NCBI GenBank assembly: GCA_964036195.1
Contig: OZ038450.1
Location: 21,605,208-21,669,207 of the forward strand
DNA: 64,000 bases
Reading direction: 5' to 3'
Source of the DNA: Sphaerolaimus hirsutus
Taxonomy: Eukaryota; Nematoda; Chromadorea; Monhysterida; Sphaerolaimidae
The position numbers and the translations under genes are program-made. This document shows, in pieces, positions 1-59,855 of this stretch. The notes below the pieces were generated by a model. That model ran no database searches. It was not told the DNA's origin and was given only the letters and a program-made list of their open reading frames with translations. Numbering within the stretch: the first letter of the stretch is position 1; every line of letters begins with the position of its first letter.

Positions 1-8486
<8,486 letters not shown>

Positions 8487-10630: not shown

Positions 10631-11064
10631 CTGGGGGCAGTCAAATGTAAAGTCAAATACAAAGTCAAATGTCAATTGTCAAGCAAAGTGTCAAATGTAA
10701 AGTCAAATGTCAATCATCATGCAAAGTGCCAGATGTAAAGTTAAGTGTCAATCATGTATCTAAATCTTATTTTTTGTATCCGAATCTTATGTTTTGTATC
10801 CAAATCTTATTTTTGACATAAGATTTGGGTACAACAACATAAGATTTGGTTATGAAAAAAAACAAGATTTGGATACACAATTGACACTTTACTTTACATT
10901 TGACACTTTGCATGACAATTGACACTTGACTTTGCATTTGACTTTACATTTGCCACTTGACTTTATATTTGACACATTGCATGGCAATTGACATTTGACT
11001 TTGCATTTGACTTTACATTTTTCACTTTACTTTACACTTTATTTGGGCTTGGCACTGCCACCTG
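10631..11064. mobile_element. C(A/T)GG(T/G)G.CAGT foldback element, long copy
   Basis: Left CTGGGGGCAGTCAAATGTAA, right complementary to CAGGTGGCAGTGCCAAGCCC. The arms are tandem TCAAATGTAAAG-type words; the core repeats AATCTTAT words between TGTATCC motifs. The same core occurs in the copy at 21475-21962. Confidence 0.65.
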
Positions 11065-16603: not shown

Positions 16604-16832
16604 CTGGTGCCAGTCCCAAGCCCTGTAAAGTGTAAAGTAAAGTGTCAAATGTAAAGTCAAATGCAAAGTAAAGTGTCAAATGTAAAGTCAAATGCAAAGT
16701 AAACTGTCAATTGTCATGCAAAGTTCAGTAATAAAATCTTTTCTCTTTTGTTTTTATTGACACTTTACTTTGCATTTGACTTTACATTTGACACTTTACT
16801 TTACACTTTACAGGGCTTGGGACTGCCCCCTG
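16604..16832. mobile_element. C(A/T)GG(T/G)G.CAGT foldback element
   Basis: Left CTGGTGCCAGTCCCAAGCCC, right complementary to CAGGGGGCAGTCCCAAGCCC. The arms are made of GTAAAGTCAAATG-type words around a short core. Confidence 0.7.
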
Positions 16833-21474: not shown

Positions 21475-21962
21475 CAGGGGCCAGTTCCGCAGGTGGACAA
21501 GTTAAGAGTTAAAAGTTAAGAGTTGAGTAAAATGACAAATGACAAGTTAAGGGTAAAGTTAAATGCTAAATGATGAGTTAAGAGACAAGAGTAAATTTAA
21601 GAGTAAAGTTAAATGACAAATGATTAGTTAAGAGATAAAAGTAAAGTTAAGAGTCAAGCAAGTGTATCCAAATTTTATTTTTTTGTATCCAGATCTTATG
21701 TTTTTGAATCCAAATCTTATTTTTCGACATAAGATTTGGATACAAAAAATAAGATTTGGATATGTAAAAATAAGATTTGGATAAACTTGCTTGACTCTTA
21801 ACTTTACTATTATCTCTTAACTAATCATTTGTCATTTAACTTTTCTCTTGTCTCTTAACTCATCATTTATCATTTTTACTTTACTCTTAACTTGCCATTT
21901 GTCATTTTACTCAACTCATATCTTTTAACTCTTAACTTGTCCACTTGCGGAACCGGCACCAG
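21475..21962. mobile_element. C(A/T)GG(T/G)G.CAGT foldback element, long copy
   Basis: Left CAGGGGCCAGTTCCGCAGGT, right complementary to CTGGTGCCGGTTCCGCAAGT. The arms are GTTAAGAGTAAAG-type words. The core (TGTATCC plus AATCTTAT words, 21660-21785) matches the core of the 10631-11064 copy although the arms differ. Confidence 0.68.
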
Positions 21963-23962: not shown

Positions 23963-24580
23963 ATGGCATCAAAATCGTGGCCCCTAAACCTGGCGCTAAC
24001 AGTCATCGTTGTTTTAACCGCGTATCGTGAGTGCACTGCGCTCACTAGCGAAAACACGGAAAAGGGGTGGGTTGTGTTTGGGCTAATACTTTTGTCAATA
24101 TTTATGCTTGTTCAAAAAATTAAACACTTTTAAATAAAACAGATCAGAACAACTAAGCATCAAAAATAATTCATGCAGCCACATCAGGGGGGCACTCCCA
24201 GACCCTGTAAAAAGCCCTGTAAAGTGTCAAATGTCATGCAAAGTGTCAAGAGTCATGGAAAATGCCCTGCAAAATGGCAAACGTACGTACCATTTTGCAG
24301 GGCATTTTCCATGACTTTTGACACTTTGCATGACATTTTACATTTTACAGGGCTTTTTACGGGGTCTGAGAGTCGCATCAGAGCGACCCGAGCATCGGAC
24401 GATTGCGGCTGCAACATCGGCTGCAACTTCAACACGCCGGGCAGCTGTGCCAGGTGCTGCACGCAGATTATGCGGTCTGGGAAGACACACCTGATTGGGA
24501 GTGACGAACGGCTTGAAGTGCCCGATGCCGGTGGGGAACAAGTTGAACAGGAGATAGATTTACGAGAAGTCCTCTTCTAG
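23963..24580 (+). CDS. Small secreted cysteine-rich protein 2 (two exons, about 83 aa)
   Basis: Paralogue of the gene at 12275-13851; family not recognised. Exon 1 (23963-24026) begins MASKSWPLNLALTVIVVLTA and ends in phase 1 at a GTGAGT donor. Exon 2 (24393-24580) reads SDDCGCNIGCNFNTPGSCAR then CCTQIMRSGKTHLIG and ends EIDLREVLF. It keeps only the second of the two Cys motifs found in copy 1; the first motif, which copy 1 encodes at the end of exon 1, is absent here, so exon 1 is shorter. A foldback element (24185-24381) fills most of the intron. AATAAA at 24816-24821 may be the polyadenylation signal. Confidence 0.7.
24185..24381. mobile_element. C(A/T)GG(T/G)G.CAGT foldback element
   Basis: Left CAGGGGGGCACTCCCAGACC, right complementary to CTGATGCGACTCTCAGACCC. 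The arms (GCCCTGTAAAGTGTCAAATG and so on) are nearly complementary around AACGTACGTAC. Confidence 0.7.
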
Positions 24581-30522: not shown

Positions 30523-33500
30523 GTGGGTTTTCGTGGGGGGTTGGTGTCGGGTGTATAAATGGGCAAGGTCTTATACGCACATCTGCCCGTTACGCACATT
30601 TGCCCGTCATGCACAAAGTTGTGCCCGGTACGCACATCTGCTTTGTACGCACATGGCTGATGCTCTATCGAGAAGTCAAGTGATTTGGAAAATTGAATCA
30701 TGAAAGTGCTCGAAAATGGCGTCTCGTTATGCTGCGGAGGGGGTAATGTTGTGAGGTATCTGACGCTCGGTACGCACATCTGCCCGGTAGGCACATCTGC
30801 CTGATACGCACATCTGCCCGGTACGCACAGAGCATCAGCCATGTGCGTACCGGGAAGATGTGCGTACCAGGCACAACTTTGTGCATAACGGGTTGTGGTA
30901 GGAACCATATTTTGCGGGATTAATAGATGGCCCATTTGGGTCTGGGAAATATAGTCGAAGCGTCACACCCCCAATTCCCTTACAACCGTTGACGAAACCC
31001 CTGCCATCGATCAACACAAACCAATCTCCCCAACCCCCCCCTCAGAATTCCCCCCCGCCGCTGTGCGCGCCCTGTGCAAGTTGGCCACCCTCACGGCGGT
31101 GCAGCGGTACACGCAGCGCAGTTGGCGGTCGCGCGCGTCACATTTGATTACGGGCGCGTGTGCGCGGCGTGACGCGCGCGCCGCGCTTGCTGGCGTTTGT
31201 GACGCGCTGGGTGCAGTGTGTAGGAACTTTGGCTGTTCTAATATTGGGTCGGTTTAGTGGGGGGGGGGGGTCATTTTTTGTTATATAAAAAACAGTTTAA
31301 AAAAATCAAGTGCCAATCCTAGTAGCGACTTTTGGATACTTTTTGCATGTGTTTTCAAAAAACGGGTCGTTCGAAGGGCGGGGAGGGCTTAAAAAAGGGA
31401 GATGATAAATTAATAGAAAAAGTGAACATTTGTTAAATAGGTATCGAAAGGAAATAGCTGATAATATGGAAACGGTGTGAAAGATCGGCACGAAAGCACT
31501 GAAAACAGGGGCAAACTAACTGAGAATTCCTTCCACGTATATAAATAGGTATTGATCTGGGCAATTTTTTAGGGGTATGGTAACGGACATTAACTCATAT
31601 TTATATCCAAATCGTTAAGTAGCTGCAATTTAAATGTTTTGCTTTTCTGTTTGGTCCTGCTAAAAAATGCTTTCAATTTTTGCAGAAATAGCTGGAAGAA
31701 GTCACTAGTTTTTGGCACGAAATTGTTACTGGCGGTTGGCGGAAAAGTTTCTGAAAAAGATATCTCCCAGGATGATGTGATCAAAGTTTTCGTTTGTTTA
31801 TATTCACATATATTTTTGACACTATATTGTAACTTGCATCAAATAATAGAAAATTTTCCGTCGCAGACTGAGAACCTAGCTGTTATTGTGCTTTTGTCTG
31901 GATGTGCAATGGATGCGCAAAGTAAAGTTCTCAAAATGATTAGAGCTTTTTACGCGAAGGTAAATGGTCAAAATATTTGTAAAATGTTAAAACTTAGTAA
32001 AATGTTAAAACTTAGTAAATTGTGAAAGCAATCTGCCCATTTTTCAGCATCCACAATACATTACTGGTTACCATAACTTACTGAAAACGGAATCAGAAAA
32101 TACACCGACCAATTCCACTCTTTCTGGGTACTCCATGTTTGCGTTGGTAATTGACAAAGATGAATTCAAAGCTAACTGGTTGAAATCTGCAGTTGACTGC
32201 TATGTGAAAGTGATTTTGCAGTCCAAAGTGCAGCCAGACCTCGATGTAGCGGTAGGTATCACTTTTGCTTTTTTTCTCAGTGAAGACTTCGCTCAGAGTT
32301 TATGTACTCTTAAAAGTGAACATGACTAGGGTTGGCCGATGTTTTTTTAAAAACGTTTTTTATTAAAAAAACACGTTTTTTTAATAAAAAAACATGACGT
32401 CCGAAATGTTTTTTTTTTTAAAACAACATCGACCGAAATTTTTAGTACTAAGCACTAGGTATTTTGCAAAATTTTTGCGCGCAAGCGCGCAATTTCACAC
32501 ACAAATTGACATTGGTGGTTGTTTTCATTGGTTTTGTGTAGGGTGTCAAATTTCCGTTTCCGTTTTCCGTTTCCGCCTTTCCGCAGTAAAAATTTTTACC
32601 TTTCCGTTTTCCGTTTTCCGGCAGCCGAAAATTTTTTACCTTTCCGTTTTCCGTTTTCCGGCAGCCGAAAAAATTTTACCTTTCCATTTTCCGTTTTCCG
32701 GCAGCTGAAAAATTTTTACCTTTCCGTTTCCGTTTTTCCGGCCCATTTTTCCGTTTTCCGGCTGAAAAATTTTTACCTTTCCGTTGCCGTTTTACCAGGC
32801 CATTTTTCCATTTTCTGGCTCGATTTTCAGTTTTCTGGCATTTTTCAATTGTTTTTCCAATCTGTATTTATCTTCAATTGGCTCATCCCAGTGTGTTGTT
32901 TTTGTCTCTTGGAGCAGCATTGACAACTGGGATGTCAGGGTTAGTGAAACAGGTGCTGTGAACCCAATATGCTGACACCAATAATTTATTCAAGTTTCGT
33001 CTGGTTGGTGTTGTGATGCTGTCAATTTGCAATTTTGGTGTTGATATTGCCAGCATGTCCATTCAGTGATTTTATTTCATGCCCATTACTGCGACAATTT
33101 TATTCACCTTTGGACTCCTGTTGTTTTCTGCTATTTCATTCATGACTGATCTGGAGTTTGACAGCCATTCCCTCATGTTCATACAACATTGGTTAAAAAA
33201 AGCTTTGACTTTGTAATATAGTTCTAAAGCTTCAACTTCATTCGTGACACTCATGATGAAGTTATCAACGTAAATGTTGTTTATTATCATCACCAACTGG
33301 TTTCGTTCCCCTTCATTTTCTTCATATTCATTCATGTTGTTTATTGTCACATTTAAATGGTATTTTATGACTGCTCCCAAAATTGCTGGGCTGCAGACAA
33401 GTCCAAACAGTACATGTTTAAAACAAAGTACTATTAAGTTATTTTCAGTTACTGGTTTTGAGGCATCTTTCAGCCAGAAAAATTGTGTGTAGTCTCTAGC

Positions 33501-36500
33501 TTGGTCATGCAATCCTATTTGCAAAAATGTCTTTTCAATATCGGCAATTAATGCTAGATTGCCTGCCCTGAACCTCAGGAGTAAGCCCAGTGCTAATGGT
33601 GTTGTAATTGGTCCTCTAAAAAGGCACTCGTTGAAACTGGGCTTACCTGCCGACCCATCATACATGATTCTGCATGATGTCGATTTGCCCGGCGTGATTA
33701 CTGGCTGGTGTGGCAGGTAATGAATCCCCTTGTTGTCTGTTTTGTCGTCACAGATCTCAATTATTCCCTTTTCTAGTTGTTCGTCCAAAACTTTCCGGTA
33801 TTGTTCGAATAAGTTTGGATCTTTGTTGAATCTTCTTATCAGTGATTTAAACTGCACCAAGGCTTCTGCTTTTCCCGTGGGCAGGTCACTGATACTCTAT
33901 TTATACAGCCAGTCAATATAGTATTGTTTGTTGTTGTCGTTGAATTTTATGCTATTTATTATCATCTCCTCTGCAATGTTGTCATCAATTGCATAGGGGT
34001 CATCAGTGATTCCCACTGCTTCTAGACTGTGAAATTGTCATAGTGTTTCCTTTCCTATGGCCACTATGGCTACTTTTTGATGATTTTTTGTTGGTTCAGT
34101 TAAGCTTGAACTACAAGTGAAGTTACAGGCATGATCCATAGTTGCAGAATGTACAGCTACCACAATCAAAGCCAAACAGGCAAACCTGCATGCAGGTTTT
34201 CCTTCTGCAAATTTGTCTATTACCATGCTAATTTCACTTTATTTTTTTCCGTTTCCGTGAAAATTTTGCTTTCTGTTTTCCGTTTTCCGGCATTTCATTT
34301 TTCCGTTTTCCGTTTTCCGGCCGACAATTTTTTTTTACCTTTCCGTTTTCCGTTTTCCGCTGAGTGAAATTTTTTTACCTTTCCGTTTTCCGTTTTCCGG
34401 CAGAAATTTTTTTTTACCTTTCCGTTTTCCGTTTTCCGTAAAGTGAAAATATTTTACCTTTCCGTTTTCCGTTTTCTGTAAAAAATTTTTTTTGACACCC
34501 TAGTTTTGTGGCATTTATAGTATCAAAGTATCCATTTATATATGCTACCATGGGTTAATAAGCCGTCATATGTTGCTGTAGTATATAATATTGAGGTAAT
34601 GTACTTCCATGTACCTCCACAGTGTGTAAATTCACTCCCAAAGTAACAACCTCGTTTAATAACCTTGTTTGATCACTATTCCGTGCCAAACTTTACCTGA
34701 AGTCACGAACATTCGACTATAAGGCGATATACGAACGATATGTTGACGAAAAATGGATATTTTTGACACAAATCACCACTTATAATGCTATCCCATGGCT
34801 CCACAGACATACTATGGTCATATATAACATCACAGAGTATTGCCACTGTCTGATATACCTATATATGTTGACACAAGGTTATATCTGGGAGCTTTTTAAA
34901 AAAAAACGTTTTTTATTAAAAAAAACGTTTTTTTTTATATAAAAAACATCGTGTTAAAAAAAACGTTTTTTTCCAACCCTAAACATGACGCCTCTGTCTG
35001 GGTTCAAACGGGATCCTGATTCCGAAAATCTGAAATGCCAATCCCGATCACAAACTTTGAAAATCCCGATAAAATTGCACCAAACCCGAACGGGAAATTG
35101 AAATGTGAATGAAAACTACAAGTGCGCTGTTTATGCCGTAAATATCTCTGGCATCCAAGTGTAGTTAGACGTTTTTCGTGATAAATTAGAAAAGACACAC
35201 TGGAAACCATAACTTTGTCCAAAATCCCGATACCTTAATCCCGGTCCGAAATAAATATAAAAAACGAATCCCGATTCGGAGACCCCGATCCCGAAAATTA
35301 ATAAACTAGTCCCGATCCCGAAAATCAAAAAAAATACCCGATCCCTAAAACTTGATTACCCCCCCCCCCCAGCGCACGTGCTCCGCCTTCCTGCGCCTGT
35401 GCTCTGCGGACGCGTTCAAGTCGGTGCTGTTGCCCACGGCGGACAAGTGCATGCGGCGCAGCGCCGAGCTGGTGGCGCCCAGCGTGGCGCTCATGCTCGC
35501 CGCGCTGCGATGCGATTCTACTGAGTTCATTGGCGACGCGCTCACGCTAGTGGCGCGTGAGTGGGGGTTGAATGATAATTCAATGTGCCTTTACACGCAC
35601 TACGTAGTTTACTGTTGAAATTTCAAATGTTTCGTACACTTACGCATCTGAGTTGACCAGAATGTGGTGCCCGTCAACTAAAGTTTACGGAGATAAAATC
35701 ACTCATTCCGGTCACCTAACTCAAATGCGTTCAAAGCTGAATAATAAGTTTTCGATCTTTAGAATTTCGGTAGTAAATCATTATATATATTGGAGTCTAG
35801 ACAACATTTTTTGTTTGCTGCAGCTTCCCTTACATCGACCCAAACGAGCAGTGAAGTGCGCGAGTACTGCCTGCAGGCAATTTCGTCCGTGGCGCTTCAG
35901 TGCACTGATCGACATTCTGTGGAGAAAGCCGTGCAGGTTTTGGTTAAGTGCTGGACCCGTGAGTGAAAGCTGCATTCTTTTTTGGTCGTAAATGCATTGA
36001 CTACAGGGGTATCTTGAATTTAGACCCATCGGGGGGTTGGATAGATAGAAAATCGCTCCTCCGGATGGATATCTTGAACTTTGAGGAGTAGGGCTCAAAC
36101 GAGATTGACTTTTAGGGATCGGGATTGGTTTAGGGTTGGGACCCCAGGGGGGGGGTGCGAGGGCCGATTAGATATTTGGCTTGGGGTGGGAGGGGGGGGG
36201 GGTTCAGGGGTTAGTAGCCAAAAAAATTGCTTCTGTAATAGATAGATAGCTGAACGATTTGGGGGGTTGTGTAACCCCCATTCGAGACCCCTGAATGACT
36301 ACAATGTAATTTTCGCCTCTCTAGTACCCGGCGCATATGGAAAATTGCCGGTGGGCAGTCGCATTGCCGTGGCGCAAGCGTTCGGTGCCCTGGCGTCACA
36401 TGCAGCGGGAAAGACTGCAGGTGTTCAAGCTGTCCATGTGCTTTCCGGATTGATCGATGCCGAGTGTTGGTTCACTTTCTCGTGTCTTCCATGACAAAAG

Positions 36501-39500
36501 TGTGGTCATGGATTTGTTTTATTGTTTATGTTTATGTTTTTCAGCCAGTGACTCTGTGCTACCGGCGCTTTTCGATGCGTGCACTCTGTGGGCAAAGAAG
36601 TTCCAATCTGCTGAGGATGTAGAGAAAGCTATTGTACCTGTTTTCAAGGTTTGTGGACGATTTTGATTTTCATTGCTTGCTGAAAACGGTTTCTGGCAGC
36701 GTGCCAAGTCAATGTGTTTGCGCAGACTGGCTTGTCGACAAAGCGCCCGTCATCATCTACCCGATGCCTTTTTCTGCAGGCTTTCAATTCTGTTGCCGCC
36801 ACTTCAGGTTCCCTATTTATATCCCAAATTAGGGATGGACAACTTTATTTTCAACTGTTTTTAAAAAAGTCGCTTTTTTTAAAAATCGCGAGGGCCCAGC
36901 AAAAAAGCGCTGGCAAAAAATTTGGCTTTTTCCAGAATTTTTCAAGATTTTGTTACGTTTAGTTTGTTGTGTGTGAACAAAAAAACGCTTTTTAAAAAAG
37001 GGGGCAGTTGAAAAAACCCGCTTTTTCCATCCCTACCCCAAATGTGCTATAAAATTTTATGACAATACATCAATTAACTTGTCCAGTTACCTGCTGCACA
37101 ACATTGGAGAAAATGTCAGTCACGTTGTCGGAAATAGTGAAAAAAGCTGTAGATCAGCCCACTCAGTTTTCACTGGTGCAGGAAGCACTTTTTGCCAGTG
37201 TTGCTTTGCTGAAATTTTACAGGCTGAGACAGGATAGCGGTGGTTTGTTTTTTATTTTGCTGCATTTATTTATGGCAACGTTACACGTTCTTTTTGAGTT
37301 TCACCAAATTTTCAGGTGTTGGCAGCGAGTCAAAAGTATCATGGTCGCAGCTAGTTGACTCCGCCCTCTTTACGAAAGAACAATTTTTGATCACACTTAA
37401 CGCCGACGGTTTGTTGTCACTTTTACGCTAATAAATTTAGGAAACATTTATTTAAACCTTTTGTTGCAGCAATGAAACATTGCGTTGAATTTGTGGAGCG
37501 AGTTATTTTGGACCGCCCAGTGGACTTCGACGTTGGCCATTATCCAAAACACATGCTGCTCGCTTTCGACGCGGCTTTGCTGCACGCTGATTACGCGTGC
37601 GTTTTTTATTAACTAATTACTTAATTAATTATTCGCTAATCGTTTGATTTAACACGTTGCAGTGTGCGCCAGCGGGCGGTCGGCGCCGCAAAGAAAATCG
37701 CCGTCACTGATGGGGTGCAGTTTGCAGCTGCGGCGCTCCAGTCGCTTTATGAGCAGGCGGGGTTCCTCACAAAAGTTGGTTCCTTTAATGCACGTGTGTA
37801 TGTTTTATGGTCCACTGACTGCAGAATTTTAAATGAAATCTACCATATACCATCTGAGAAGTTTATTTATTGGATAGATCTCTAGTGAAATCCATCTGCT
37901 GCCTTCAAAGAAACCGCGTGACATTTTCCTTTTTCAAATTCCAGTACCACGACGACGTGCACGAGCGTCGCGCGGTCGAAAACGCCCAAGGCGACAACAC
38001 ATCGACGGAAAATCGCAGCGGCGACTGTTTGCCCCAACGCCGCGCCAAATTGTACGCCGACGCGGCCAAGCTGTTGTGCATGGGCATGTTCGGCGAGCAG
38101 TTCGACAAGACCGAGCTGAGTAGATTGCTGGTGCATCTGCTGCCTGTGGCTTCGCTGCAGCTTTTCGGTCAGTTTTTTTCGTCTTGTGATTTTGAGGAGC
38201 CAATTATGTAGGTTTTGAAGCAACTAGAAAGTGTTAAGTGTAACAATAGCAATGTGCTAGGTGGGTGACAAATAAACCTATCAGTGTCAATGTCAAGTTG
38301 TGGGTACTCGTTACTTAGCTTACTTTTCATTCATCTAACCACTTTTCTATTGAGTTTTAAATTTCCTTGCCAAATTAACAACTTGCGGAACTGGCACTAT
38401 GGTTCCAAAAATGGGTGATTTTCAGACGATATAATAAAATATAATCTCAGAAAATCGCTAAAAATGAAACATTACTAAATCTATCAGAAAGACGCAGAGA
38501 AAATACAAATAAATTGAAAATAAATAAAAATGTGATTTTTTTATATTTTCTTATAATTAATAAAATTAGAATAAAATTTCTACGGAGAAGCTGGGAAAAA
38601 ATAAAAATATATAAGACTTTTGTTATATTTTCTTATATTTAAAAAATATAAATCGCCCCGGTTTTTAAAACGCTAATTGGCACCAGATCTGATGTGTTCT
38701 ATTCAACTGTTGCATATTATTGCCATTTCCAGCTGTGGGCACTGAGGGTAATCGTTTGTGGTCCTACTGTGTGTCTTCTTTGAGTCGCGCGGGTGACTTC
38801 GTTTCCATTGGGCAGTCACTCATCCAATGGGCACTCGATTGTAATGATTACGAAATTGCCGCAAATGCGTTCGCCATTTTAGTCACTTGCGATGGCAGCA
38901 TGCTGGTGAGTTTTGATTTTTCAGTTTGACAATTTTATAAAAAATCACTTTTTCATTTTTAATATTTTTTTTTGCACCACGCAGGCGGCCGCAGAGGCGG
39001 CTTCCAAACAGCTAAGTTTATTACAAGTGGGCGATTTGTGTGACGTCACTGTTGAAGAAGTGCACATTTGGAAGCACGAAGAGGGTCAATTGTATGATCA
39101 GAGTGTCATCTCCGAGTGAGTTCAATTTTTGAAGATTTGCCACTTAACTTGAACATGAAACTGCATAAACACGTTGTAAAATTCAGGAAAGAGCAGCCAC
39201 GAGGCAACATTGAACGGGAATCCAAGTTGTACACCTACAAACAACAAATGGCGGATATGAAACTGCGCTTAGAGTTGGAAGAAAAGTGGAAGCGAGAGGG
39301 CAGGGTGGTTCAGAAAAAGCTCACGCCCAAACAGGAAGAAGCGAAACGAGCTCAGATCAAAAAGGAAAGTCAAATCAGGAAGCAAGTTGACATGGTCGGT
39401 GGAAATGGGTCTATTTTTCTCTCGATTTTCTGTACTCGATGGACATCACACTTGTTATGGAAACCCACCATAACCCATCTGAATAATGAACAACAAATTA

Positions 39501-42500
39501 TTCTGTTTTACATCATAATGAATATTCCGATTTTTACTATGGAATAATTGATTACGAAATTTATCACACGATTTTATTCATTAACTTATGGTAGGATCCT
39601 GCGCAAAGTATGCGCTCTCCCCGGTATACACTTCTCCATTTTACAATGAATTCACCCTTCCAGCTTTTCACCTCCGCTCGCCGCCATCTGACCATATTCA
39701 CGTCAACACTTTCACATCTGCGCTCACTACCTCCATCACGAGTCCGACCAGGTGCCAGTAACAGACCCTGTAAAATGCCCCGTAAAATGCCAAATGTCAT
39801 GCAAAGTGTCATAAGTCATGGAAAATGCCCTGCAAAATGGCAACTCAGTTGCCATTTTGCAGAGCATTTTTCTATGACTTTTGACACTTTGCATGACATT
39901 TGACATTTTACAGGGCTTTTTACAGGTTCTGGGACTCCCCCCAGAGCTCAAGGCACCCGCTTCCACAGCTCTTTTGAGCGGTGCGCTCACTGGAGGGCAC
40001 CTTTTTGGTGCTATGCGGTCCCCTCTTGTCGCTGAATTGACACTAGAAGCGTGGAGTCAGACTGTGTGGTTGGCACTCAGCCAATTTTCCAGGGAGCCAG
40101 AGTATTGGACTACTGGTGCCAGGGGTTAGTGTTAAAGCCGATCACATCCCTTGCCAGGGTCCAGACGATATATCGCATCGAATATCAGATATAGACTATT
40201 TTTTCATATCGAATCTCTATATCGATGGTTCGTATCGTATCTAGGGATGGCAAGCGCTTTTTTTCAAGCGCTTTTTTTTTAAAAACGCCGCTTTAAAAAA
40301 AAGCGCTGGCAAAAATTTTAGTACTCATGCACTAGGTATTTTGCAAAAAATTTTGCGCGCAAGCGCATAATTTCACATGCAAATTGCCATTGGTGGTTGT
40401 TTTCATTGGTATTGTAGCATTTTAGTGGCATTGCTTCTATTCCTGCATGGTATCATGTAATAATAAGTTGAGGAGATATGTCAGTGTAGTAAATAATATC
40501 CAGCCAATGTGCTTCCACTTTTCTACAGTGTGAAACATCACTGTCATGTATTAGCCATCTTTTATAGCCAAATTTATGCCTAACTTCACTTGCAGTCACG
40601 AAACATTCAAAAACAGCGATATACACAATAAGTCGACATAAAATTGGAGACGGGGCCGTTAAAAAAAGCGCTTTTTCCATCCCTAATCGTATCCATATCG
40701 AATATCGAGTTTCAGAGAATAATATCGAATATCCATATCGAAAAGTCATGTCGCCCTCACCCTATGCCTTGCTTTGTTCACTTTTTAAAACCGAGGCTCT
40801 AATGTTGTATTTTGCACCCAGGGGAGCAGTTGGTGTACGGCAGTGCGCGTGCGCTGGGCGTCGCTCGTGAACTAGAAAGTTGGGCCACTGAATCGCCAGC
40901 CAGCCAGGCTAATAGATTGGTGCGGATGCTGAACCGTGCGTTTTTTTGTCGTTGACATCTTTTTTGTAAGATTGTTTACATGTTGTTACCGTATTTCTTC
41001 TAATAGAAGGGCGGGTCTCTAATAGAAGGGCGTCTCCAATAGAAGCTACACTTTTTCGACTTTATTTGGGCAACAAAATCAATAGGAGGGGGGTCTCCAA
41101 TAGAAGGTACAGATAGTGCTGGAATTGTGCCAAATGCATAAAGAATGAAAAAATATCAGTGGACGCTGCGATTGTGTGGCTTTGGTCCATTGATCTGGTG
41201 CTATTTTAAGATAAGATGTTCAATTAACTCCACGAATCGTCGTTCTGATCAAATGTCTGTGACGTAACACATTGAAAAAACTTGGGAGAAAGTGAAAAAA
41301 TGACGAAACAAATAGAAGGGCGGTCTCCAATAGAAGGGCGTCTCCAATAGAAGGGCGGGTAAAAAAGCTGACGAAAAAATAGAAGGGTGCCCTTCTATTA
41401 GAAGAAATACGGTATATATTTATAAATGCGACACTTGAGTTCCGAACAATGTGATATTTTTACATTTTACAGTGAAGATCAATGGCGTCTCGTGCAAAGC
41501 TCCCAACGCCGATGACAATGAGCCGGATGAAAACGATGAAAATAATGAAGATATTGAGTACAATCTCATGCATCCGTTGGAATTCGGTTAGCTTTCAATC
41601 GATGATGAATATATTTTTCTTTAAAAAGACCATTTTGTCAATTTCTTCCTCTAATCGGATCCACACCTACAGCCGTGTGCATGCCGCTGGTGCAGTCGAT
41701 TCTAGACGAGGCGCACAGCGACGCAGCCGCCGGCCGCCGTACCGCCGTGATTGAAATGTGTCTGGAATTGATCGACGCTCACCTGGAGGGGGCACTGGAG
41801 CAGGTAGAGCGGCACGATATTATTCCATTGCATTCGTGCAATTCGGTGCCAGTTCCGCAAAGTGAGAAGTGAAATGGCAAAGGCGAAGTGAAATGGCAAG
41901 TGAATTGAGAAGGAAATTGGCAAAAGCGACGGGAAATTACTTTATATTTTTCATTATTTTATTATTTTTACTTAGCTTTTGCCAATTCACTTGCCATTTC
42001 ACTTCGCCTTTGCGCTTTTACTTCGCCTTTGCCATTTCACTTCTCACTTCTCATTTCGCGGAACTGGCACCTGGTGCTACACATAGACCCTGTAAAAACG
42101 CCAGTAATGCTAGATGCTAAATGCTAGATGCAAGATGTCCTGCGAAGTGCCAAAGGTCATGTAAATGCCCTGTAAAATGGCAAAATTGTTGACCATTTTA
42201 CGGGGCATTTTACATGACTTTTGACACTTTGCATGACATTTGACATTTTACAGGGTCTGGCAGTTCCCCCTGGTTGTCAACCCCCAAAATACTCACCCTC
42301 CCACCCCAGCCAAACTTCATCCGCGCATTGGACACAGTGTCCATCTGCGGTCGATGTTTCGATTTGCTCGCACTGCCAGGCGTCAGCTCTCTAGCCCAAT
42401 GGGCGAACGACTGCAATCTGGCCGCGGCGGCGCTGCTCGACTTGGCGCCGAGCCAAACGCAGAGGGCCACCGTGGTGCGCATGTTGGCCGAGAGGGTGAC

Positions 42501-45500
42501 CAGTGACTTGGTGCCTGTTAGAGAGTGTGCATTGAAGGTGGTTTGGTTGTGGGGTTGGGGGTTTTCTATAGGTTTTATACGCGAGTAGTGCGAGTGAGTA
42601 AACCCTAGGCGCCTACAAATCTACTTAATGTGTTTGAAAACACTGAAATTGTACAAATTGTTTTTGGATCTCGATCCATAATTTTGAAAAATAATCCGAC
42701 AGGTATTTATTGTGTTTTTTTGACAGAAAGAAATTCGCAATGTTATAAAAAAATTATTTTTGCAAAAATAGAAATCCATGTAGTAGTGGGAGTAGGTTTG
42801 GGAGTGGAGTGGGTCATGTATTGCTCAAATGTGGTTTTATAGACATGTTTAGATTTAGTGTAGGGCATTACTTTAAGACATTTTGGCATCAATTTGTATT
42901 GAAGACATTTTGTCCACCCAATATTTTTTGAAAATATCTAAATTTGTAAGTATGCATCACATCCGCGTGTATTCGCAGATGTTACACGCGCTAAAATGTG
43001 GCTTGACCGATGGCCCAGTGGAAACTGTGACCAGGCGACTATTTGTTTCCTGTTTTGACCCGGATGAAAACTGCAAACAAGTGGGAGAGAATTTGTGGGC
43101 GGAGTTGGGGTGGGAAGCTGGATCTGACATGGTCGATGGACTACTGCAGGATTTGACTAGGCTAGTTGATATTTTGATATACCGTATATCCTCGAATAAG
43201 CCCCCTTGGATAACTCTCCCTCAAATGACTACCCCTTGAATCCCCCCCCAAACCCCCCCTCCCCAAACAAAACTCCCCTGTGGTCTTCTTCGTGCATTTA
43301 CAGTATGGGTGTATATTTTTCGTGCCATCGTTTCTTCGTACTTTTACAGCCGGTCTACCTGCGTGCGGTTGTCCTCTGCCAAGGCGCTGAAATCAGTCCT
43401 AGAACGAGTACCAGATTCAGAAATTGATGCTTTATTGTCATCGGTCTTGCAAAAACTCAATGGCATTTACGCGGAGCACAATAAGAAGCCCGAACCAATT
43501 GTGGATGATGTTGGCAGAATTGTGAGGGAGGCTGAAGATCTGTGGCATGTTGGTTTATGAAATCAGTTCACCACAGATTTTCGATTGACTCTACCCTTGT
43601 ATAGCTCGCCTTCCTGGTGCGATTCCAGGGGTCTCCTAGGGGGGGGGCTGCCCCCCCAAATCCGCCAGCTATCTATCTATCCCGGAGGCCGTTCAGCTAT
43701 CTATCTATCCCGGAGGCAAATTTTTTGGCTACTAACCCCAAAGACCCCCCCCCCCCAAATCGCTCAGCTATCTATCTATCTGGAGTGGTTTTTGAGAAAT
43801 TTTGTCCCAATTTTCGCACCTTTTTATAGTTTTTCACCTTCAAAATTGTGCTCTCCGGCTATATGCATGGTTATATGCCTGTTTTTAGCTATTTTAAACC
43901 TACTTTTGACCACTTGAAACCGATTATTAGCGATTTTTTCCCCTTTCGGCCTTCTATGTAGGGTGTCAACTTTCCGTTTTCCGTTTCCGTTTTCCGGCTG
44001 CTAAATTTTTTTTCCATTTCCGTTTCCGTTTTTCCGGCTCATTTTCCGTTTTCCGGCTAAAATTTCAGTTTTTCCGCCTTTTTTCCGTTTTCCGGCTCAA
44101 TTGTCTGTTTTTCCAACTTTTTTCATTTTCTGGCTCAATTCTCTGTTTTCTGTTTCAGCCAAACTGGTAAACATGCATGCAGGTTCTCAATTATGTGAAT
44201 TGTTTCTATTTCTAGCAAGATTTCTGCAAATTTTTTTGATTTCTGGATAAATTTCTGCATTTTTTTCTGTTTCCGGCAAAATTTCAGCAATTTTTTTCCG
44301 TTTCCGGCATAATTTCAGCAAATTTTTCCGTTTCCGTTTCCGTTTTCCGGCCTTTCATTTTTCCGTTTTCCGGCAGGTGCAAATTTTTTTCCGTTTCCGT
44401 TTCCGTTTTCCGGCAAGTGCAAATTTTTTTCCGTTTCCGTTTCCGTTTTCCGCCAAAAAGTTTTTGTTGACACCCTACTTCTATGCACTGAAAAAGCCTA
44501 TATATTTTGCCCCCCAAGCCCCCCCCCAGAAAATTTTTTCAGCTATCTATCCCTCGGGAGGAGCGATTTGCTATCTATCCAGCCCCCGCGAACGCCAAAA
44601 TCTTGGAGACCCCTGTGCGATTCTCAGACTTTGTAAAATGTGAAATGTCATGTGGAGGGTAAAAGTCATGTAAATTGTCAAATCTTTATTTACTCCTGTC
44701 GTTTGTCATTTGTCATGACATTTTACGTCACCTTTGATACATTGCATGATATTTTACACTTTACAGAACATTTTACTGGGTCTGGGAGTGGTCCCTGAAG
44801 CACAGCCATAGTCATAAATAGTCCCTGATACAGTCTTCTTTGTTATGATATTATGGTAAAAAATGTCGAAAAATGTCGCAGGCGCGCTGGGGCGTGTGCA
44901 CAGCCCTGGCACAACTATCGACTGTGATATCCAGGTGCGGCGCCGTCACCCAGAATGAACTGCTTGTCAAGTACCTGGCGTGTTTGGTGCCCGACGCTGT
45001 CAACGACAGGCGGGGTGATGTACGCCAGGTTGCTTTAGCCGCTGCCACTGATGTCGTGAAGAGTTACGGAGAGACCCATTTGAATCAACTGTTGGAGTTG
45101 TTTGAGCGTACGTTTATATTTCTTTTTTTTTTGTTTTTGGTGCATCTAGCGCTTTAAAAAATCTCGGGAAACTACTATATTTTTCAAATACAAGAAAATA
45201 TACAAAAATATTGTTTTTATTTTCTCCAGGTTTATCCAGAGAGATATCATTATATTTAATTTTATAAGAAGATAATGTAAAACATTTCTCATTCATATTT
45301 TTTTTTCTCTGACTTTTTCAGAGAGATTTAATTTAATTAAATTTTTGAGAGATTCTCAGAGATAATATTTATCTTTATATGTAAACACCTTCCCGGTCAC
45401 GTCCGGCAGCCATTTTTTGATTTTACTTCTTATATCCTATCCCCAGTTCTAGGGCGCCCCCGAGGCTGAAACTTGGGGGAGTTAATTGTCCCAACCCCCC

Positions 45501-48500
45501 TCTACTTCGCATGAATTGGGGGGGGGGTCGCCGCGACCCCCCCCAATTCATGCGAAGTAGAGGGGGGTTGCGACAATATCTCCCCCAAGTTTCAGCCTCG
45601 GGGGCGCCCTAGAACTGGGGATAGGATATAAGAAGTAAAATCAAAAAATGGCTGCCGGACGTGACCGGGAAGGTGTTTATATTGTTTTCCTGAAAAACGC
45701 CCATTTTTTGGAACGCTAGTTGCGTCAACGGGATCTTGTGTGTTGAAAAATTGTGTTGAAAACATGAAAACTACAGGAGAGCTGGACTCTTGTCCGGACG
45801 GGGCTGAAACGGACGGACTTCGACAAGCGCTGGTCATTTTGTTGGGCACCCTGGCTAAGCATATGCAGCAGGACGACTCCAAAGTCACTGCGATTGTGGC
45901 CAAATTGATTGAAACATTGAGCACACCCAGCGAGCAGGTTGGTGAATTGTAACTATGTAAATAGGATTGAAAAAGCTTGGTAGATTTATATATTTACCTA
46001 TTTTTATATCCGGAAATATCCAAAAACTTAGATTTAAATATATTTAATTGGTTAGAAGAAAATATTTAAAAAAATGTATTATTTGTTCTGCATTTTTTCA
46101 TAGTGATTTAATTACCTATATTTTCTTTTTGCGATTTTATCTGAGATAGTATTGAATCATATTTTCTCAAAATCAGACACGGTAGCATTTTCTGAAACTT
46201 CAGTTTTAAGTTAAAACTTTTAACTAGCACAATTCATGTGACACCCTCTCATGATGCCCCCCCCCAGGTACAACGCTCAGTAGCCGAGTGCCTCCCCCCT
46301 TTGGTGCCGTCGATCCGCGCGCAGGCGGGCGAGCTATCTGCCAAGCTGCTCTACCTTCTGCTCGAGGCGGACAATTACGGCGAGCGGCGAGGGGCTGCCC
46401 ATGGTCTGGCAGGACTGGTCAAGGGGCTTGGTATAAGTACACTGAGACAGTTGGATCTTATGGCTACTTTGCAGGTGATGGGTGGTTGGGTTGTGTAGAT
46501 AATTTTTAAAGCTACCGTATTTGATTGGATAATCCCCGCTCGAATAATTTCCCCCTGTGAGACGAGTTGGAAAAAAGTATGCCACCGTGAATAATTCTCC
46601 CCTTAAGGCATATGATCAATGTGTTGTGTCAAATTTGAACAAAAATGAAATGTTCTTGTGTCAATAAAGCATATTTCGCGGAATGAGTGCTTGAAACATG
46701 CTCAAAAATTTTGATGAAACAATAATCCCTCCTTTGAATAATTACCACCGTGAATAGCCCACCCCCCTCAATTAAGTCTGACGAAAAAATAATTCCTCGG
46801 GGGAATCATTCTAGCAACCATGTCTATCAAGGCCGTATCCAGGGGGGGGCGGGGGGGGCTGCAGCCCCCCCCCTTCCCGGGGCGAGACCAGAAAGTGACC
46901 GGAAAATGCGACTTTTTCAACGTCAGCGTAAAAATTTTTTTCACGCATTTGTCGCGCATTTTTCACCACACATAAGGTATTATCATCAGATGTGGCCTAA
47001 AATCGTTATAAATACACTCAATGGTGTGCTTTTTTGCTGTCTTTGTGTGTATATTTACATACATATACAGCGTTCCATGGCGCTGGTGCCAACGCCGATT
47101 CGGCCATGGCGTGGCGCCTACTAATGGCGCCAGCGCCCTAACCCCATTCCGCCATTCTGGGGGTAAAATTTCAGGGGGGGGGGCTGAGCCCCCCCCCCGC
47201 TCGCCGGCCTCCGTAAAAAAGCAGCCACCCCCCGCTCAAAAATCCTGGATACGTCCCTGACGTCTATCATAGTTGATTGACCTGACAACCCCTATTTGCA
47301 GTCAGCGTTGAGCGACCGCAAAGTGCCCAAGCGTCGCGAGGGCGCCCTACTGGCGATTGAGGCGTTGGCGTCGATGCTGGGGCGCCTGTTTGAGCCCTAC
47401 GTGGTGCAGGTGCTGCCCGCGCTGCTCGCCGCTCAAGCAGACTCTGATGCGCATGTGAGACAGGTGAGTGACAGGCGCTGAACTTGTATTCATACCATTC
47501 CACTTTTTTATGGGATGGGAAGTAATGTAGCTACCGTATATACACTAATAATTCCCCCGCCTTGAATAATTCTTCACCTTGAATAATTCCCCCTCTTAGA
47601 CGAGTGAGGAAAAAATAATTCCCCCCTCCAATAATCCCACTCTTTAGGCATATGATAAAGTTTTTGCATCCAATTTGAACAAAAATTACATGTTATTCAG
47701 TAAATCAAGCATATTTCTTTAAATCAGTTCATAGAAACATGCTTAAATTTTTTGACGATATAACAATCCCCCCCCCCCCCTTGAATGATTCCCCCCTCGA
47801 ATAGTTCCCCTTCAAAAAAGTCTGACGAAAAAATAATTCCCCGGGGGGATTATTCGAGTATATACGGTAGGTCACCTCACAGGATAGTTCACCTCGTAGG
47901 GATACTGAACCTTACGGTCAACTGAAATTTACAACCTTTTTTGTTGACGCTTTGTCTCTGTCAACTGGTCAGGTCAGAAACAATCTGTAAACTGTAACTT
48001 GTTAAAAATTGCTGTTACAGTATACGAGAAGTGTGCATATTGCCAAACGTCATGTATGCAGATCAATGTATGTAATTTTAATCCCATTTCCACCCCAGGC
48101 GGCTGAGTGGTGTTCTCGCACGGTCATGTCGCAACTGTCGGCGCCCGGCGTCAAGTTGGTCCTGCCCGCCCTGCTGGCCGGCCTGGCCGAGGACCAATGG
48201 CGCACCAAAGCGGCCAGCGTCGAGTTACTGGGCGCCATGGCTTTTTGCGCGCCGAAACAATTGAGTCAGTGCCTGCCGCAGATCGTGCCAAGGCTGATTG
48301 AAGTGCTGTCTGATTCTCATGACAAGGTGCAGCAGGCGGGCAGGACGGCCTTGCGCAGGGTGGCCCAGGTTATAAGAAACCCGGAGATTCAGGGTTGGTT
48401 TTGGTAGTTTTTTGGGGGGGAGGGGTTGTGGTATGAACGGGGTGTATCGTGATTAGCAGTGAAATAATTTTAGCAAAATTTTTATTTAATGGTATTTATC

Positions 48501-51500
48501 AGAAGGTAAAATTCATAAAAATTTATACTTTTATTTTTCTTTACTGTTACCAGAGAAGTTTGATTATAAATTTTCAGGGAGATTTTCTGAGATATTTGTC
48601 AAAATATAAGAAAATATAAAAATGTCTGATTAACATTAATATATTTTTCCATGCCTAGTTATCGAGATTTAAATTTATTTTATTTGAGAGATTTTCTGAA
48701 ATTTTATTAAACTATATTTTCTCAAAAGCATTGATTTTTCAATGCTAATCGTCATCAGGGTTGACGGACCTTTAAACTTATGTAAATAAAGCTTTACTAA
48801 AAGTAAAAATTAAATTTTACTATTTTTTATTTAAAAACTATTTTATTAGAATGGTTTAGTAAACTACCACTTCCTAAATTCCTATTCACCTGATTAGGTG
48901 CAATGAAACCTGAGCAAAAATATAAACTTTGTCGAAAAATTGGATGGCAGCCAATTCGGTTCAACAACTCAATTTTCGGTACCTGTACCTAATTACCACA
49001 CCCTCAGGTCTCACCAGCCACATTCTATCCGCCCTGGAAGACGGGTCAGCCAACGCTACAAACAAGTGCGTCCGCATGTTGACCAAAACTCGCTTCGAGC
49101 ACTACGTGGACGCGGCGTCGTTGGCGCTGCTCGTGCCCGTGCTGCGGCGCGCTTTTGATGATAGACAGGCGGAGACCAGGAGATTGGCTTGTCATATTCT
49201 CGCTAGCTTGTACGCCCTGGCGCAGCATAAGGTGGGTTGCGGCTAGTAGCACACAGTGTCAACAGTGTGTCTCTCTGCAAATAAACTCGCTCTGCCTGCA
49301 AGTAGTGGCAGTGTGCGAGTAATTGTGACCGCTCTGCAAGTAATTGTTGCCACTCTGCATGTAATTGTTGCCGCTCTGCAAATGCGCTCTCTCTGTAAGT
49401 ATGCACCCCATGCCGCGGCACTAGGCTGGGGTGCATACTTGCAGAGCGAGCGCATTTGCAGAGCGGTCATAGTTACTCTCAAACCGCTACTACTAGCAGA
49501 GCGAGTTTATTTGCAGAGTCTCAGCTAGGGATGGGAAAAATGTTGTCTTTTATTAAAAAAACCGTTGTTTTTAAGATAGGTTTAAAAAAATCACCGGCCA
49601 TCCATAGTCTCAGCAACAATGTAGTGTCTCTTCAACAACTCATTTCAACATTCTCCACAGGACATGGAGCCGTACATGGGCAACGTGGTGCCGGGCGTGC
49701 AGAAGTGTCTCCTCGACCCAGTTCCCGAAATCCGCGCCAGTGCTGCCAAGGCGCTGGGCGCCATGCTGGGACAGGGAGAGGGCGGGGCCGAGGACCAATT
49801 GGGACAGTCGCTGCGCACTACACTTGTGCCGTGGCTCAAGCAGCAGTTGATTTCGGATAGCAGCAGCGTTGATAGAAGTGGCGCTGCTCAGGGTTTGTTA
49901 TTTTAATGGGTTTGTGCCCACCGTATACCCTCGAATAAGACTCCAGAGTTATGTTTTCGTTAGAAGTTTTGCAGGGTTTTTTTTCCGCAGAACTGGACTG
50001 AACTTTAAGCTTGGACGTGATTCATTGTATGAAAGCATTCCTTCAAATCATGTAATCCAGGTTTAACTGTTCAAAAACAACGAAAACAATGTATCCATGC
50101 TAATTGAATTTCTGTTGAATAAAATGGAGTAAAAACAGAAATCGCCATCCAAATAATACAAATACACATTGTGGATACACATCAAATACCCACAGGTGGA
50201 GTTTATCAAGGGGGGGTATTTTTTTGACCTAGCCAACGAGGGATTTATTTAAGGGGAGTCTTATTCAAGTCTATACGGTATTTATATGGTCGTCGCAGAA
50301 ACTTTTCGAATATACTTTCAGGTCTGGCTGAGGTGCTGGGCGCCATGGGGCCCGATCATTTAGCTCGCGTAATGAATGACATCATCGAAACAGCCGAATC
50401 GCAAAATGTTGAACCGTGTGTGAGGGATGGCTACATACAGACGTATATTTACCTACCCGCTGTCTTTGGCGCGGAGTTCATGTCTTATTTGCCCAGGATT
50501 ATACCGGGAATATTGACGGTTTGTGTGGTGATCAACCTTTCGAAAAAATCACTAATTTTCCGAAATTTAAAAAAACCGTGAAATATATCCAGGCGCTGGC
50601 GGACGAATCAGAGTTCGTGCGTGACTCCGCCCTTAAGGCTGGCCGACGTTTGATTAATTCTTACGGCGACAGCGCCGAAGCGAGGGGACTGTTACTGCCG
50701 CAGCTCGAGCGCGGGCTCAGCGACAATAATTGGCGTATCAGATATGCTTCTGTGCAGGTGAGCTAGAATTGAGATAATTTTATTTAATTTATTTTCTATT
50801 AGCGTATATCTCCGAATAAAACCCCCTTGAATAACGCCCCCCCCGAATACCTCTCCCCTGTTTGCCGGGTGATGAGAAAAAACTCCCTCCTTGAACAACT
50901 CCTCCCCTTGAAAAACTCCCCCTTCAAAAACTCTGACGAAAAAAACTCCCCTGGGGTGTTTTTCGAGGATATACGGTAATTAGAACAATGTCTCGCAATA
51001 TTTCTACGCTTTTATCCCCCAATTCACGTCTTTATTGTCAAATTTCCACATCGCAGCTGCTCGGCGATCTCCTGTTCAAGCTGTCGGGCGTCACCGGCAA
51101 GATGAGCACCGAGTCCAAGTCGGAGGACGACACCTTGGGCACGGAATCTGCAAATAAAGCGCTCATTTCGGCGCTGGGTGCGGAAACTAGGGCCAAAGTT
51201 CTCGCTGGACTGTACGTTGCCAGGAGCGACGTGCAGTTGAGTGTGCGCCAGGCGGCTGCGCACGTGTGGAAAATGATCGTGGCTAATAGCGCCCGCACTG
51301 CTAAAGAGGTTTGTTTTGTTCTGATAACTTTGTGTGGTCCAGTGGGTTTTCTGCTTTTTGAAAGACTCTGCCCTACCAAAGTTTAGCCATCTTTTCTCTT
51401 CTGGACAGCTTTCCAGCTATCCCATTTGGCCACCCAGAAATCCAAACTCTTCTGAGCCCCGGTGTACAACTAAGACCACCTTGCTTGAATCATGCACGTC

Positions 51501-54500
51501 ATTACTACACGATGTGGAATCAGTTCGCACTTGACTTGTCTTCTACATTCAAAATCGACCACTTTTACCGCAGATCCTGCCCACGCTATTCACCCTGCTG
51601 CTAACTTGCCTGGCCAGCGAGTCCGGCGGCGACCAGCAGTTAGCGGCCGGCCGTTGTCTCGGCGAACTGGTCAAGAAAATGGGCGAGCGCGTACTAGTTG
51701 ACGTGGTGCCAGTTTTGGAGCGCGTACTAGTTCACGGAGATGTGCATCAGAGGTCGGGCGTGTGCGTCGCGCTCAGGGAAATTCTCGCCAGTACTACGAA
51801 GGAAATGGTCGGTTTTGGAGTGTGGGTATACTTGAGGTAATGGCCCTACACACACTAGTTTTCACCGTGATACTTGTGAAAACTGAAATGGCCACATGGC
51901 GACATCCAGCCTACTCTTATTCTGTGCTATATGTGGTTCACCGTATTCCCTCGAAATACCCCCCCCCCCTCGAAATACCCCCCCCCCTCGTTTGACCCCC
52001 CCCCCCAGATTGAGTGTAAAGAGAACGTACATGACAAATACTGCAGTTTGTGTTCTGCGTAGTGCAGAACACACGTTAAAACAATGTCGGAATCACGTTA
52101 GAACAGTGTTTATACCATCTACGTACTACTATTAGTCTACAGGAGTCTATACAAGTCAGTTATTGATGCATTTTTTTACCCCAGTGTACATCACAAACAA
52201 CGATTTTGTACTAGGATTTGAAAAAATGTCCTGTGAAATATTAACCCCCCCGTCGAAATACCCCCCCTCGTTTAACCCCCCCCCCCCACTCGAGACCACT
52301 ATGAAACAATCACCCCCCGGGGGGTATTTCGAGGAAATACGGTAGTTTTCAAATTTTCACTTTCATTAATTTTAATTCAAATAAAAAGCAATCAAATCAT
52401 TCAACCGTGTTCATTAATTTGCACCTGAAAAAATTCAGTTTTCACCGAAGTCACGGTGAAAACTAGTGAGGTACAATGAGATCGTCTGTGAGTTATCGAA
52501 TCAACGTGATGTGCGAATACACCGAATCAAAAAGTATTTTTGTGTGTTTCTTATATTTTTAGCACTCATCAAAATTCGCATTGTTGAAATTTCGCTTTTT
52601 TATATAAAAACAGAAATGACCGTTATTTTGCACCCTCATTCACGCACAGGCGCAACTGTACGCGGACTCGCTCACACCAACAGTTTTGCACGCGTGCACG
52701 GATGGGAGCGCTCGTGTGCGCGTGGGCGGAGCCCAAACTTGGGCCGCCTTGTACGAAGCCATTGGGCACAAGGCGCTCGACGATGTGCTCGTGCCCATGC
52801 TTGATGCGTTGGAGAATGAGGTTTGGGTTCATTGACCCTACACCCACTAGTTGACATCGACGTCAAATGTCAACTGGTTCGCATCCCAATTCAAAGCTCG
52901 CTGACGAGTAACACTGCATTATTGTATTTATTACCCATGTATACTTTATGTCGGCCTCGTACATAGCACGTACCGCAATATATTTTTTCACACCGCATCT
53001 TCAGTTGCAACATGATTCAACACTTTTGCACTTGAACTTCGTTCGTCAGCTTGCCAGCAAGCTTGGAATTGGATGGTAACCAGTTGACATTTGGTGTCGA
53101 TGTCAACTAGTGTGTTTGGTGCCATTTTGCAAATGTGATGTTGAGTTCGCTTCTCACAATAAATGTGATGCTGATTTCAGACGTTTGGCGACGATGGGGA
53201 GCCGGTTGCACTGGACGGTCTCAAGCAGATTGTTGGCGCCAAGCCAAAAGTTGTCCTTCCGTACATTGTGCCCAAGGTGAGGTATTTTTTTACGCACCTT
53301 TGATGCTTTTCATCATTCGATTTTCGATCATTTTTATTCCCATCATAACTTTAAAAATGATCGCATTTAGTTGGCCACTTCGTGTACAAAAGTGGAAGCG
53401 CTGGCGAAATTGTCCGCCGCTGCAGGGCCGGACGCACTGGGCAAACATTTGGCCAAGATTTTGGACACGTTGCTGGAAGCTTTAGCCAAAAATGTGGACA
53501 CGCCCGAGGAGGAAATGGTATATATAATTTTGCATTTTGTACAGAAGCTATCCGCTATATATAGGACCTGCACTAGCTTAATTGTCAAGATAAAATAAAT
53601 ACACTGTTTGTGAATACCCTAAATCCTCGAATAAACCCCCTTGGATCACCGGTTTTAAAAACTCCCACCCCGTTGGCTGGGTTAGGAAAAATACCCCCTC
53701 GAATATCCCCCCTTGAATAACTCCCCCTCCAAAAACTCAGACGAAAAAAAAACTCCCCTGGGGTTTACGGTTTATATACTTTGATTCCACCACAATCTGC
53801 AGACAACCTCTCTATGCCTGGACGTTTTGCTGACAGCAACTGACGAAGCCAGTGTGGCACTGATTATCAATGCGCTGCTGAACAAGTCGGCCGCACAGGA
53901 TACAGATGAGAAATTGAATTGCGCTGCTGCGAAGATGTTATCCGCTTATTGCCAGGCGGCAAAGGTTTTTTTTTTCTTGCAGAATGTCAATTTCAGCAAA
54001 TTTTTTAGGCCGTAAAAGGTCGTTTACACGTTTTCGTGTGCCGGCAAGAAATTAAGTGGGAAAGTTCCATAATTCCACAATAAAGTTCCACATCTGTAAG
54101 AAAAAGCAGTGAAGTATACTCACTGTCACTAGTTAAATGTACACACGTGCCAATTTGCAGATAATTTGAGCCTGTCGTTCAAGACTTACAGGCATTTGAA
54201 AACGAATTCAAACTTACGGCATCTACAAACCGCAGGTGCCGCTTACTCCCCTTTTGGACACGATTCTCCAGGGTTCGCTCCGCCTTTACACCAATTCTAA
54301 CCCTGCGAGCTGCATGGCCGGTGTCGATCTTCTGCAAGCGTTGGTCCGCCAACTCGATCAGAGAGAACAGATTGACTCGTTGCAGAGTTTGCGACATGCG
54401 CTCAGGATTATGTTCGATTCCTGGGCTAAGGGTTTGGCTAATGGAAGGGAGTTTATACCGGGATTTGAGAGCCCTAAGGGGTTGCAGGTGGTTTTGGTTT

Positions 54501-59409: not shown

Positions 59410-59412
59410 TCC

Positions 59413-59855
59413 CAGGGACGTAGCCAGGATTTTTGAGCGGGGGGGGCGGATTGTATACGGAGCCCGGCGAACGGGGGGGGCGGCGCCCCCCCCCTAAAAT
59501 TTTACCCCTGTTGTATGGGAATGGCGCCGTGGCGCTGGCGCCATTCGTAGGCGCCACGCCATGGCGCCACTGGCGTTGGCATTGGAGCTAAAACAGCAGT
59601 ATACGTCTGTATTTTACAGGCATATACAGCGACATGGACAGAAATTGAGTCCATTTTCACTGGTTTTTAGGCCGCGGCGACTGGTCAGCAAAAAAAATAT
59701 GTTGTGAAGGGTGAATGCGCGCTTGCGCGCAAAATTTTTTCAAACTGTCGACAAAATCGTCGTCTGAAAGTGCCATTTCTGGCACATTTTTTGGTCCGGC
59801 CCGGGAAGGGGGGGGGGCGGCCGCCCCCCCCGCCCCCCCCCTGGCTACGTCCTTG
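59413..59855. mobile_element. hAT-like MITE inside the BEL element, 8-bp duplication
   Basis: CAGGGACGTAGCCAGGATTT at the left, CCTGGCTACGTCCTTG at the right. AACATTCC is duplicated exactly (59405-59412, 59856-59863). Long G- and C-runs and GGCGCC words inside. The same family as 46828-47259. The last part of the pol ORF as read (after the MGMF segment) is MITE sequence, not retroelement. Confidence 0.9.

Follow-up and report, generated by a model that had tools for sequence, protein, structure and literature searches.

A CAG-flanked foldback transposon in GCN1 as a candidate end-to-end spliceosomal intron

In a stretch of 64,000 nucleotides (hereafter the window), a 190-bp foldback element lies within the gene GCN1, at 39752..39941 on the + strand. 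We propose, tentatively and with somewhat less than even confidence, that a miniature transposon resembling NuwaI (PHIS superfamily) inserted here at a CAG in a nematode-like animal and functions at present as a spliceosomal intron. The parts of this reading differ in strength. That the element is a transposon flanked by a target duplication is very probable. That it forms an intron from end to end is a possibility suggested by models of spliced alignment, which we hold a little short of even, and an introner-like insertion is plausible as a single case.

The left end of the element reads GTGCCAGT and its right end CCCCC, and it is too short to encode a transposase. It has two inverted arms (39757-39825 and 39868-39936) with 88% complementarity, and the RNA fold is predicted at -123.8 kcal/mol, compared with a mean of -48.7 for shuffled sequences (z = -18.5; equally stable shuffles: 0 of 200). 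The original prediction had placed a foldback element at the coordinates of what it called intron 19, and both the arms and the fold bear this out. Since the complementarity is only 88%, the element need not be very young. It is flanked by two copies of CAG: the left one (39749..39751) is the 3' end of the proposed upstream exon, and the right one (39942..39944) forms the proposed 3' splice site. The donor CAG|GTGCCAG and the acceptor CTCCCCCCAG| do lie exactly at the element ends, as had been predicted. Rfam gave no matches, and exact pattern scans of viral and genome contigs, whose scope possibly leaves out the genome records of the window itself, gave none either.

The element belongs to a family with eight delimited copies in the window. 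The others are at 10634..11061 (- strand; CTG duplication on the + strand), 16607..16829 (+; CTG), 21478..21959 (-; CAG on the + strand, GG end at left), 24188..24378 (-; CAG on the + strand, apparently just within a coding exon), 41846..42070 (strand not assigned), 42074..42269 (+; CTG) and 44616..44794 (-; CTG on the + strand), the last being degenerate and situated between GCN1 exons. Partial relatives at 4494-4608 and 26182-26301 and isolated motifs resembling ends near 5419 and 5505 were left uncounted because no two ends could be set. The elements are 179-482 bp long, and the arms exceed 61 bp in several copies (e.g., 69 nt in the GCN1 element at 39752). An exact 3-bp direct repeat, always CWG (CAG or CTG), flanks seven of the eight; the identity of the flanks ends at 3 bp in six of these exact copies, the seventh, at 42074, having been read separately. 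The exception is the copy at 41846, which has GTG at both ends and lies between TCG and CTG, with no exact duplication. Five copies (those at 10634, 16607, 21478, 39752 and 42074) pair a GTG end with a GG end; those at 24188 and 44616 each combine a GG end with an altered one. The copies at 41846 and 42074 adjoin (41846-42272), one having been placed at a CTG beside the end of the other, upstream of a GCN1 acceptor ending at 42309; a comparable abutment-like junction is seen at 10623-10641.

These flanks revise the description of the family in two respects. It had been described as bounded by a single terminal repeat C(A/T)GG(T/G)G, and this does not hold: an inverted terminal repeat would give CAG opposite CTG, and what we see are direct repeats, CAG with CAG and CTG with CTG. 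The C(A/T)G is therefore the 3-bp target duplication, exact in seven of eight copies, and the motif is made up of the CWG duplication followed by a terminal repeat starting with GTG or GG. The other copies had also been credited with splice-like ends. When each of the eight elements is considered on both strands, only two of 16 combinations have both GT and AG, namely the element at 39752 on the + strand, which is the sense strand of GCN1, and the copy at 10634 on the - strand, which reads CAG|GTG...CCCCCAG. We recognise no gene in the - strand flanks of the latter. Three signals proposed for other copies are rejected: the GTGAG at 21960 is host DNA beyond the duplication; the copy at 16607, whose end at 16830 had been cited, has CTG as its target and therefore no AG; and TCG^GTGCCAG at 41845, considered as a second element-derived donor, scores only -4.3.

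The family is likely NuwaI-like, judging from its termini and targets. NuwaI, a member of the PHIS superfamily, makes CWG duplications and has terminal repeats of 12-61 bp that usually start with GGG; its autonomous members encode a DDE transposase and a Myb/SANT protein (PMC4482050). It is reported from 16 animal genomes with no nematode listed, and it is described by transposase homology in fish, beetle, crustacean, mollusc and anthozoan (PMC4482050). The elements of the window share with it the 5'-CWG-3' target duplication (in seven of eight copies) and an animal host, and their G-rich ends resemble its termini in part. They differ from the NuwaI described in that one end is usually GTG rather than GGG and the host group is another one; at 179-482 bp, the family here is known from short elements alone.

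The window is animal DNA, and the host gene is GCN1. When joined, its + strand exons hit proteins named GCN1 from many animals among the 120 of 2368 protein matches listed, the highest identity among these (60%) being with Plectus sambesii; a spliced alignment guided by the Plectus protein agrees, so that the earlier naming of the gene stands. By our reading, none of the 19 proteins from a second search is nearer than Plectus, and a third protein search returned no matches. A PDB search with one exon has as its top match a chain of 2898 residues labelled “Ribosomal protein L19,” a label at odds with that length, followed by elongation factor 3. In a tree of 31 rows, the GCN1 of the window groups with the nematode rows Plectus, Ascaris, Onchocerca and one more (support 100/100); its branch is long and was flagged as unsure by the program, and we therefore speak of a nematode-like animal. 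The aligned exons span approximately 31006..55348 on the + strand, the first exons being uncertain. The exons that matter here are the preceding exon (39187..39394, from spliced alignments), the proposed upstream exon of 88 nt (39664..39751) and the downstream exon (39945..40124, ending at 40115 or 40124 depending on the alignment). Two other GCN1 acceptors, at 35361-35372 and 46256-46267, have long runs of C ahead of the AG and resemble the 3' end of the element. An intron of approximately 3.1 kb in GCN1 contains a - strand open frame (33072-33896) that we take, by resemblance, to be reverse-transcriptase-like. Elsewhere in the window, large open frames on the - strand at 56887-64000 resemble a BEL/Pao-type retrotransposon with an envelope-like frame alongside, and three - strand open frames at 681-3672 match tubulin in Pfam and probably constitute a tubulin gene.

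Can the element be spliced from end to end? With GTG at one end, CCCC at the other and CAG as the target, the sequence reads CAG|GTG...CCCCCCAG|, and GCN1 stays in frame once the element and one CAG are removed. The proposed intron (39752..39944, 193 nt, phase 1) would split a Glu codon, across which, as originally predicted, the frame runs on both in the sequence and in the final spliced alignment. It had further been claimed that the flanking exons align continuously with GCN1. This holds for the right flank (RSPLV...W against SPLV...W in Plectus, by eye) and for the first part of the left exon, but the last 16 or so codons before the element align with nothing. Among all AGs of the 30-56 kb region, the acceptor CTCCCCCCAG scores at the 98th percentile; the donor CAG^GTGCCAG is at the 82nd percentile of GTs in the same region and has no G at +5, which is common in GCN1 donors.

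We compared alternative exon models by spliced protein-to-DNA alignment. In its final version, both the weights of splice sites and the codon log-odds come from 23 exons of GCN1 itself, a training set that leaves out the exon 39187-39394. The guides are the Plectus protein and a profile of animal GCN1 (134 proteins fetched, 64 picked, 60 aligned, and 59 with residues in the stretch concerned); the profile consists of these 59 rows, with Plectus, P0003 and Ascaris up-weighted and P0001, which is all gap, dropped. Scores are in half-bits, at intron penalties of our own choosing (16, 24 and 32). The model with both splice sites at the element ends (exons to 39394, 39664-39751 and from 39945) scores 513.9 with the profile and 441.8 with Plectus, and it ranks first among six models at all three penalties. 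A model with the acceptor at 39969 scores 509.2 and 441.0, only 4.7 and 0.8 behind. Without the element-end donor, the best models reach 496.7 and 418.2. Left unconstrained, the alignment places a 12-nt micro-exon within the element (516.1 and 445.1); although this solution has the top score, we find it implausible and consider it an artefact. Three simpler alignments, guided by human GCN1, by Plectus and by the 59-row profile, picked other boundaries that depended on the guide: the profile alone left out the upstream exon, and Plectus alone ended it at 39701.

These last results are consistent with a rival reading that we hold almost as probable as the end-to-end intron: that the element sits within an older and larger intron, the true splice sites being outside it, or just one of them at an element end, and 39703-39751 being intronic. 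Examples are 39394 joined to 39926 or 39947 without the 39664 exon, or the donor at 39752 combined with the acceptor at 39969. The 16 codons just upstream of the element (39703-39750) argue for it, with a codon log-odds of -8.4, a value as low as in none of 1022 overlapping exon windows and equalled or exceeded by 56% of 2936 stop-free intron windows. In contrast, the first 13 codons of the upstream exon look coding (5.6% of intron windows score as high) and resemble Plectus, and the acceptor of this exon is strong (16.8). Past the element, 10 codons (39947-39976) likewise look coding (3.6% of intron windows as high). At 10.0, the downstream exon as a whole (59 codons) is low for an exon: 3.2% of 188 exon windows score as low, and 9.5% of 357 intron windows attain this value.

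Alignment scores weigh against the older intron to a varying degree. At penalty 16, its versions fall below the element-end model by 4.7-31.3 half-bits with the profile and 0.8-46.7 with Plectus. At penalties 16, 24 and 32, the element-end model surpasses the best one that lacks the upstream exon by 17.2, 9.2 and 1.2 with the profile and by 25.0, 17.0 and 9.0 with Plectus. When 39410-39748 is shuffled, with eight downstream acceptors permitted, the gain from the upstream exon is reached in none of 150 shuffles with Plectus and in 12 of 150 with the profile. The length of the encoded protein bears on both readings. The spacing from the KES to the SPL motif is exactly 50 residues in 55 of 59 GCN1 homologues (range 48-56), whereas the element-end model gives 65, i.e., 15 more; by hand count, the alternatives give approximately 57 (39969), 48 (39996), 42 (39926), 37 (39701/39979) and 35 (39947), so no model of an older intron yields 50 residues either. 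With 65 residues in one case and no main alternative at 50, either the loop is longer in this fast-evolving protein or the exons truly end elsewhere. Three further copies (at 41846, 42074 and 44616) sit between GCN1 exons, probably in introns, as the older-intron reading would have it for the element at 39752. For the first of them, the alignments set a donor at 41861, 16 bases inside the copy, and thereby take 16 of its bases into an exon, which shows that weakly conserved stretches of GCN1 are hard to model; by eye, the donor CAG^GTAGAG at 41803 (score 3.3) reads on better against Plectus. The end-to-end intron at 39752 thus has in its favor the anatomy, the frame and the best score of any model without the micro-exon, and against it the upstream codon usage and the 15 additional residues.

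A much less probable reading, with about one chance in ten, is that the insertion hit precisely the CAG of an existing 3' splice site, so that the right CAG replaced the old acceptor while the old donor remained upstream. A CAG target does equal an acceptor, and in a second gene, described below, the left CAG of a copy lies 6 bases past a likely acceptor. In GCN1, however, the GTs within 39664-39749 (at 39702 and 39742) are in the wrong phase by our reading, and the upstream phase-1 donor at 39399 is weak (-4.3); the model that uses it is lower by 29.3 (profile) and 42.4 (Plectus) half-bits at penalty 16, and by 13.3 and 26.4 at penalty 32. Least probable of all is a disrupting insertion, in which the copy is not cleanly spliced and the allele is damaged, or the assembly holds a haplotype-specific insertion: the duplication is intact, but the 1436 codons of sampled GCN1 exons (chosen by alignment) contain no stop codon and the imperfect arms do not call for a very young element.

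Here we give an example where another copy appears to interrupt the coding sequence of a second gene, which would encode a small secreted Cys-rich protein. The copy at 24188 lies between a signal-peptide-like start exon at 23963 and the Cys-rich body, and the coding frame is kept past the right CAG once the element and one CAG are omitted. Related coding pieces with the motif C-x-C-N...CARCC occur on the + strand at 12275-12440 (start and body), 13617-13830 (body) and 23963-24579 (the gene with the element); Pfam has no match for the two pieces scanned. The paralogous body at 13.6 kb is identical at 53 of 60 positions from the base following the right CAG. To the left of the element, nine of 10 bases (CA-GCAGCCA) recur in register, but the six bases closest to the insertion differ from those of the paralogue, which lacks a CWG at this point, and just 12 of the 25 bases on this side match. 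BLAST joins both flanks to the paralogue (E-value 1e-17), the left side amounting to 16 bases. We regard 13610-13685 as a putative, partial empty site. In this orientation the element offers no GT donor, and its duplicated right CAG is an in-frame but weak acceptor (score 3.8, compared with 13.1 for the likely original at 24178). Consequently, a shift of the 3' splice site may have allowed the gene to absorb the element, or the gene may be broken.

Returning to the proposed end-to-end intron of GCN1, we infer a mechanism in which insertion into an exon leads directly to intron gain. The transposase would cut at CWG and duplicate it. Where the target is CAG on the sense strand, the left CAG would become the exon end and the GTG of the element the 5' splice site, while its C-rich end would act as the pyrimidine tract of a 3' splice site formed by the right CAG. 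Once the element and one CAG are spliced out, the mRNA would be identical to the sequence before insertion. The hairpin, which pairs the internal CTGTAAAA with TTTTACAG, may mask cryptic splice sites inside the element. By the splice logic of the element ends, only CAG insertions in one orientation can work. The suggestion that the family as a whole supplies ready-made introns is accordingly narrowed: the anatomy of the element at 39752 allows it, but this is a single case and the other copies cited are unfit.

Such an arrangement has precedents. Introners, as described, are non-autonomous DNA elements that give rise to introns on insertion. Many have inverted repeats and duplicate a short target, and the two splice sites can come one from the element and one from the duplication; in most families the mRNA keeps its length (PMC9860276). 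The element at 39752 is likewise bounded by transposon termini and a target duplication, but introners are called from families of similar introns, and here there is one candidate among eight copies in 64 kb. The main text of that work mentions neither nematodes nor Harbinger (PMC9860276). In the open-access literature searched, no paper joins introner, Harbinger and target site or combines introner, CAG and target site duplication, and among the matches listed for introner and nematode none is titled on such a case. Huff et al. (2016) reportedly found intron-generating DNA transposons in Micromonas and Aureococcus that are MITE-like and carry one splice site, taking the other from the duplication; those are said to have longer duplications and many demonstrated introns, and their hosts are algae. 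Henriet et al. are said to have found MITE-derived introns in an animal, Fritillaria borealis, with mostly non-canonical splice sites, in contrast to the canonical GT-AG here.

How new introns originate has long been debated. For 168 new introns of Caenorhabditis, no source sequence was found (PMC9169325). It is tempting to speculate, although we consider it rather unlikely as a general statement, that in a nematode-like animal a MITE family of the PHIS/NuwaI type turned into introners, its CWG target coinciding with the CAG at the ends of exons and introns and a change of one terminus from GGG to GTG creating the donor. If this were true, a quarter of genic insertions (CAG in sense, GT end first) would become clean introns with the mRNA unchanged, and other insertions near an exon start would be absorbed as the acceptor moves to the duplicated CAG. 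A target duplication doubling as the splice-site triplet would make a simple and predictive mechanism, in which only copies with CAG in sense and the GT end first should be spliced flush.
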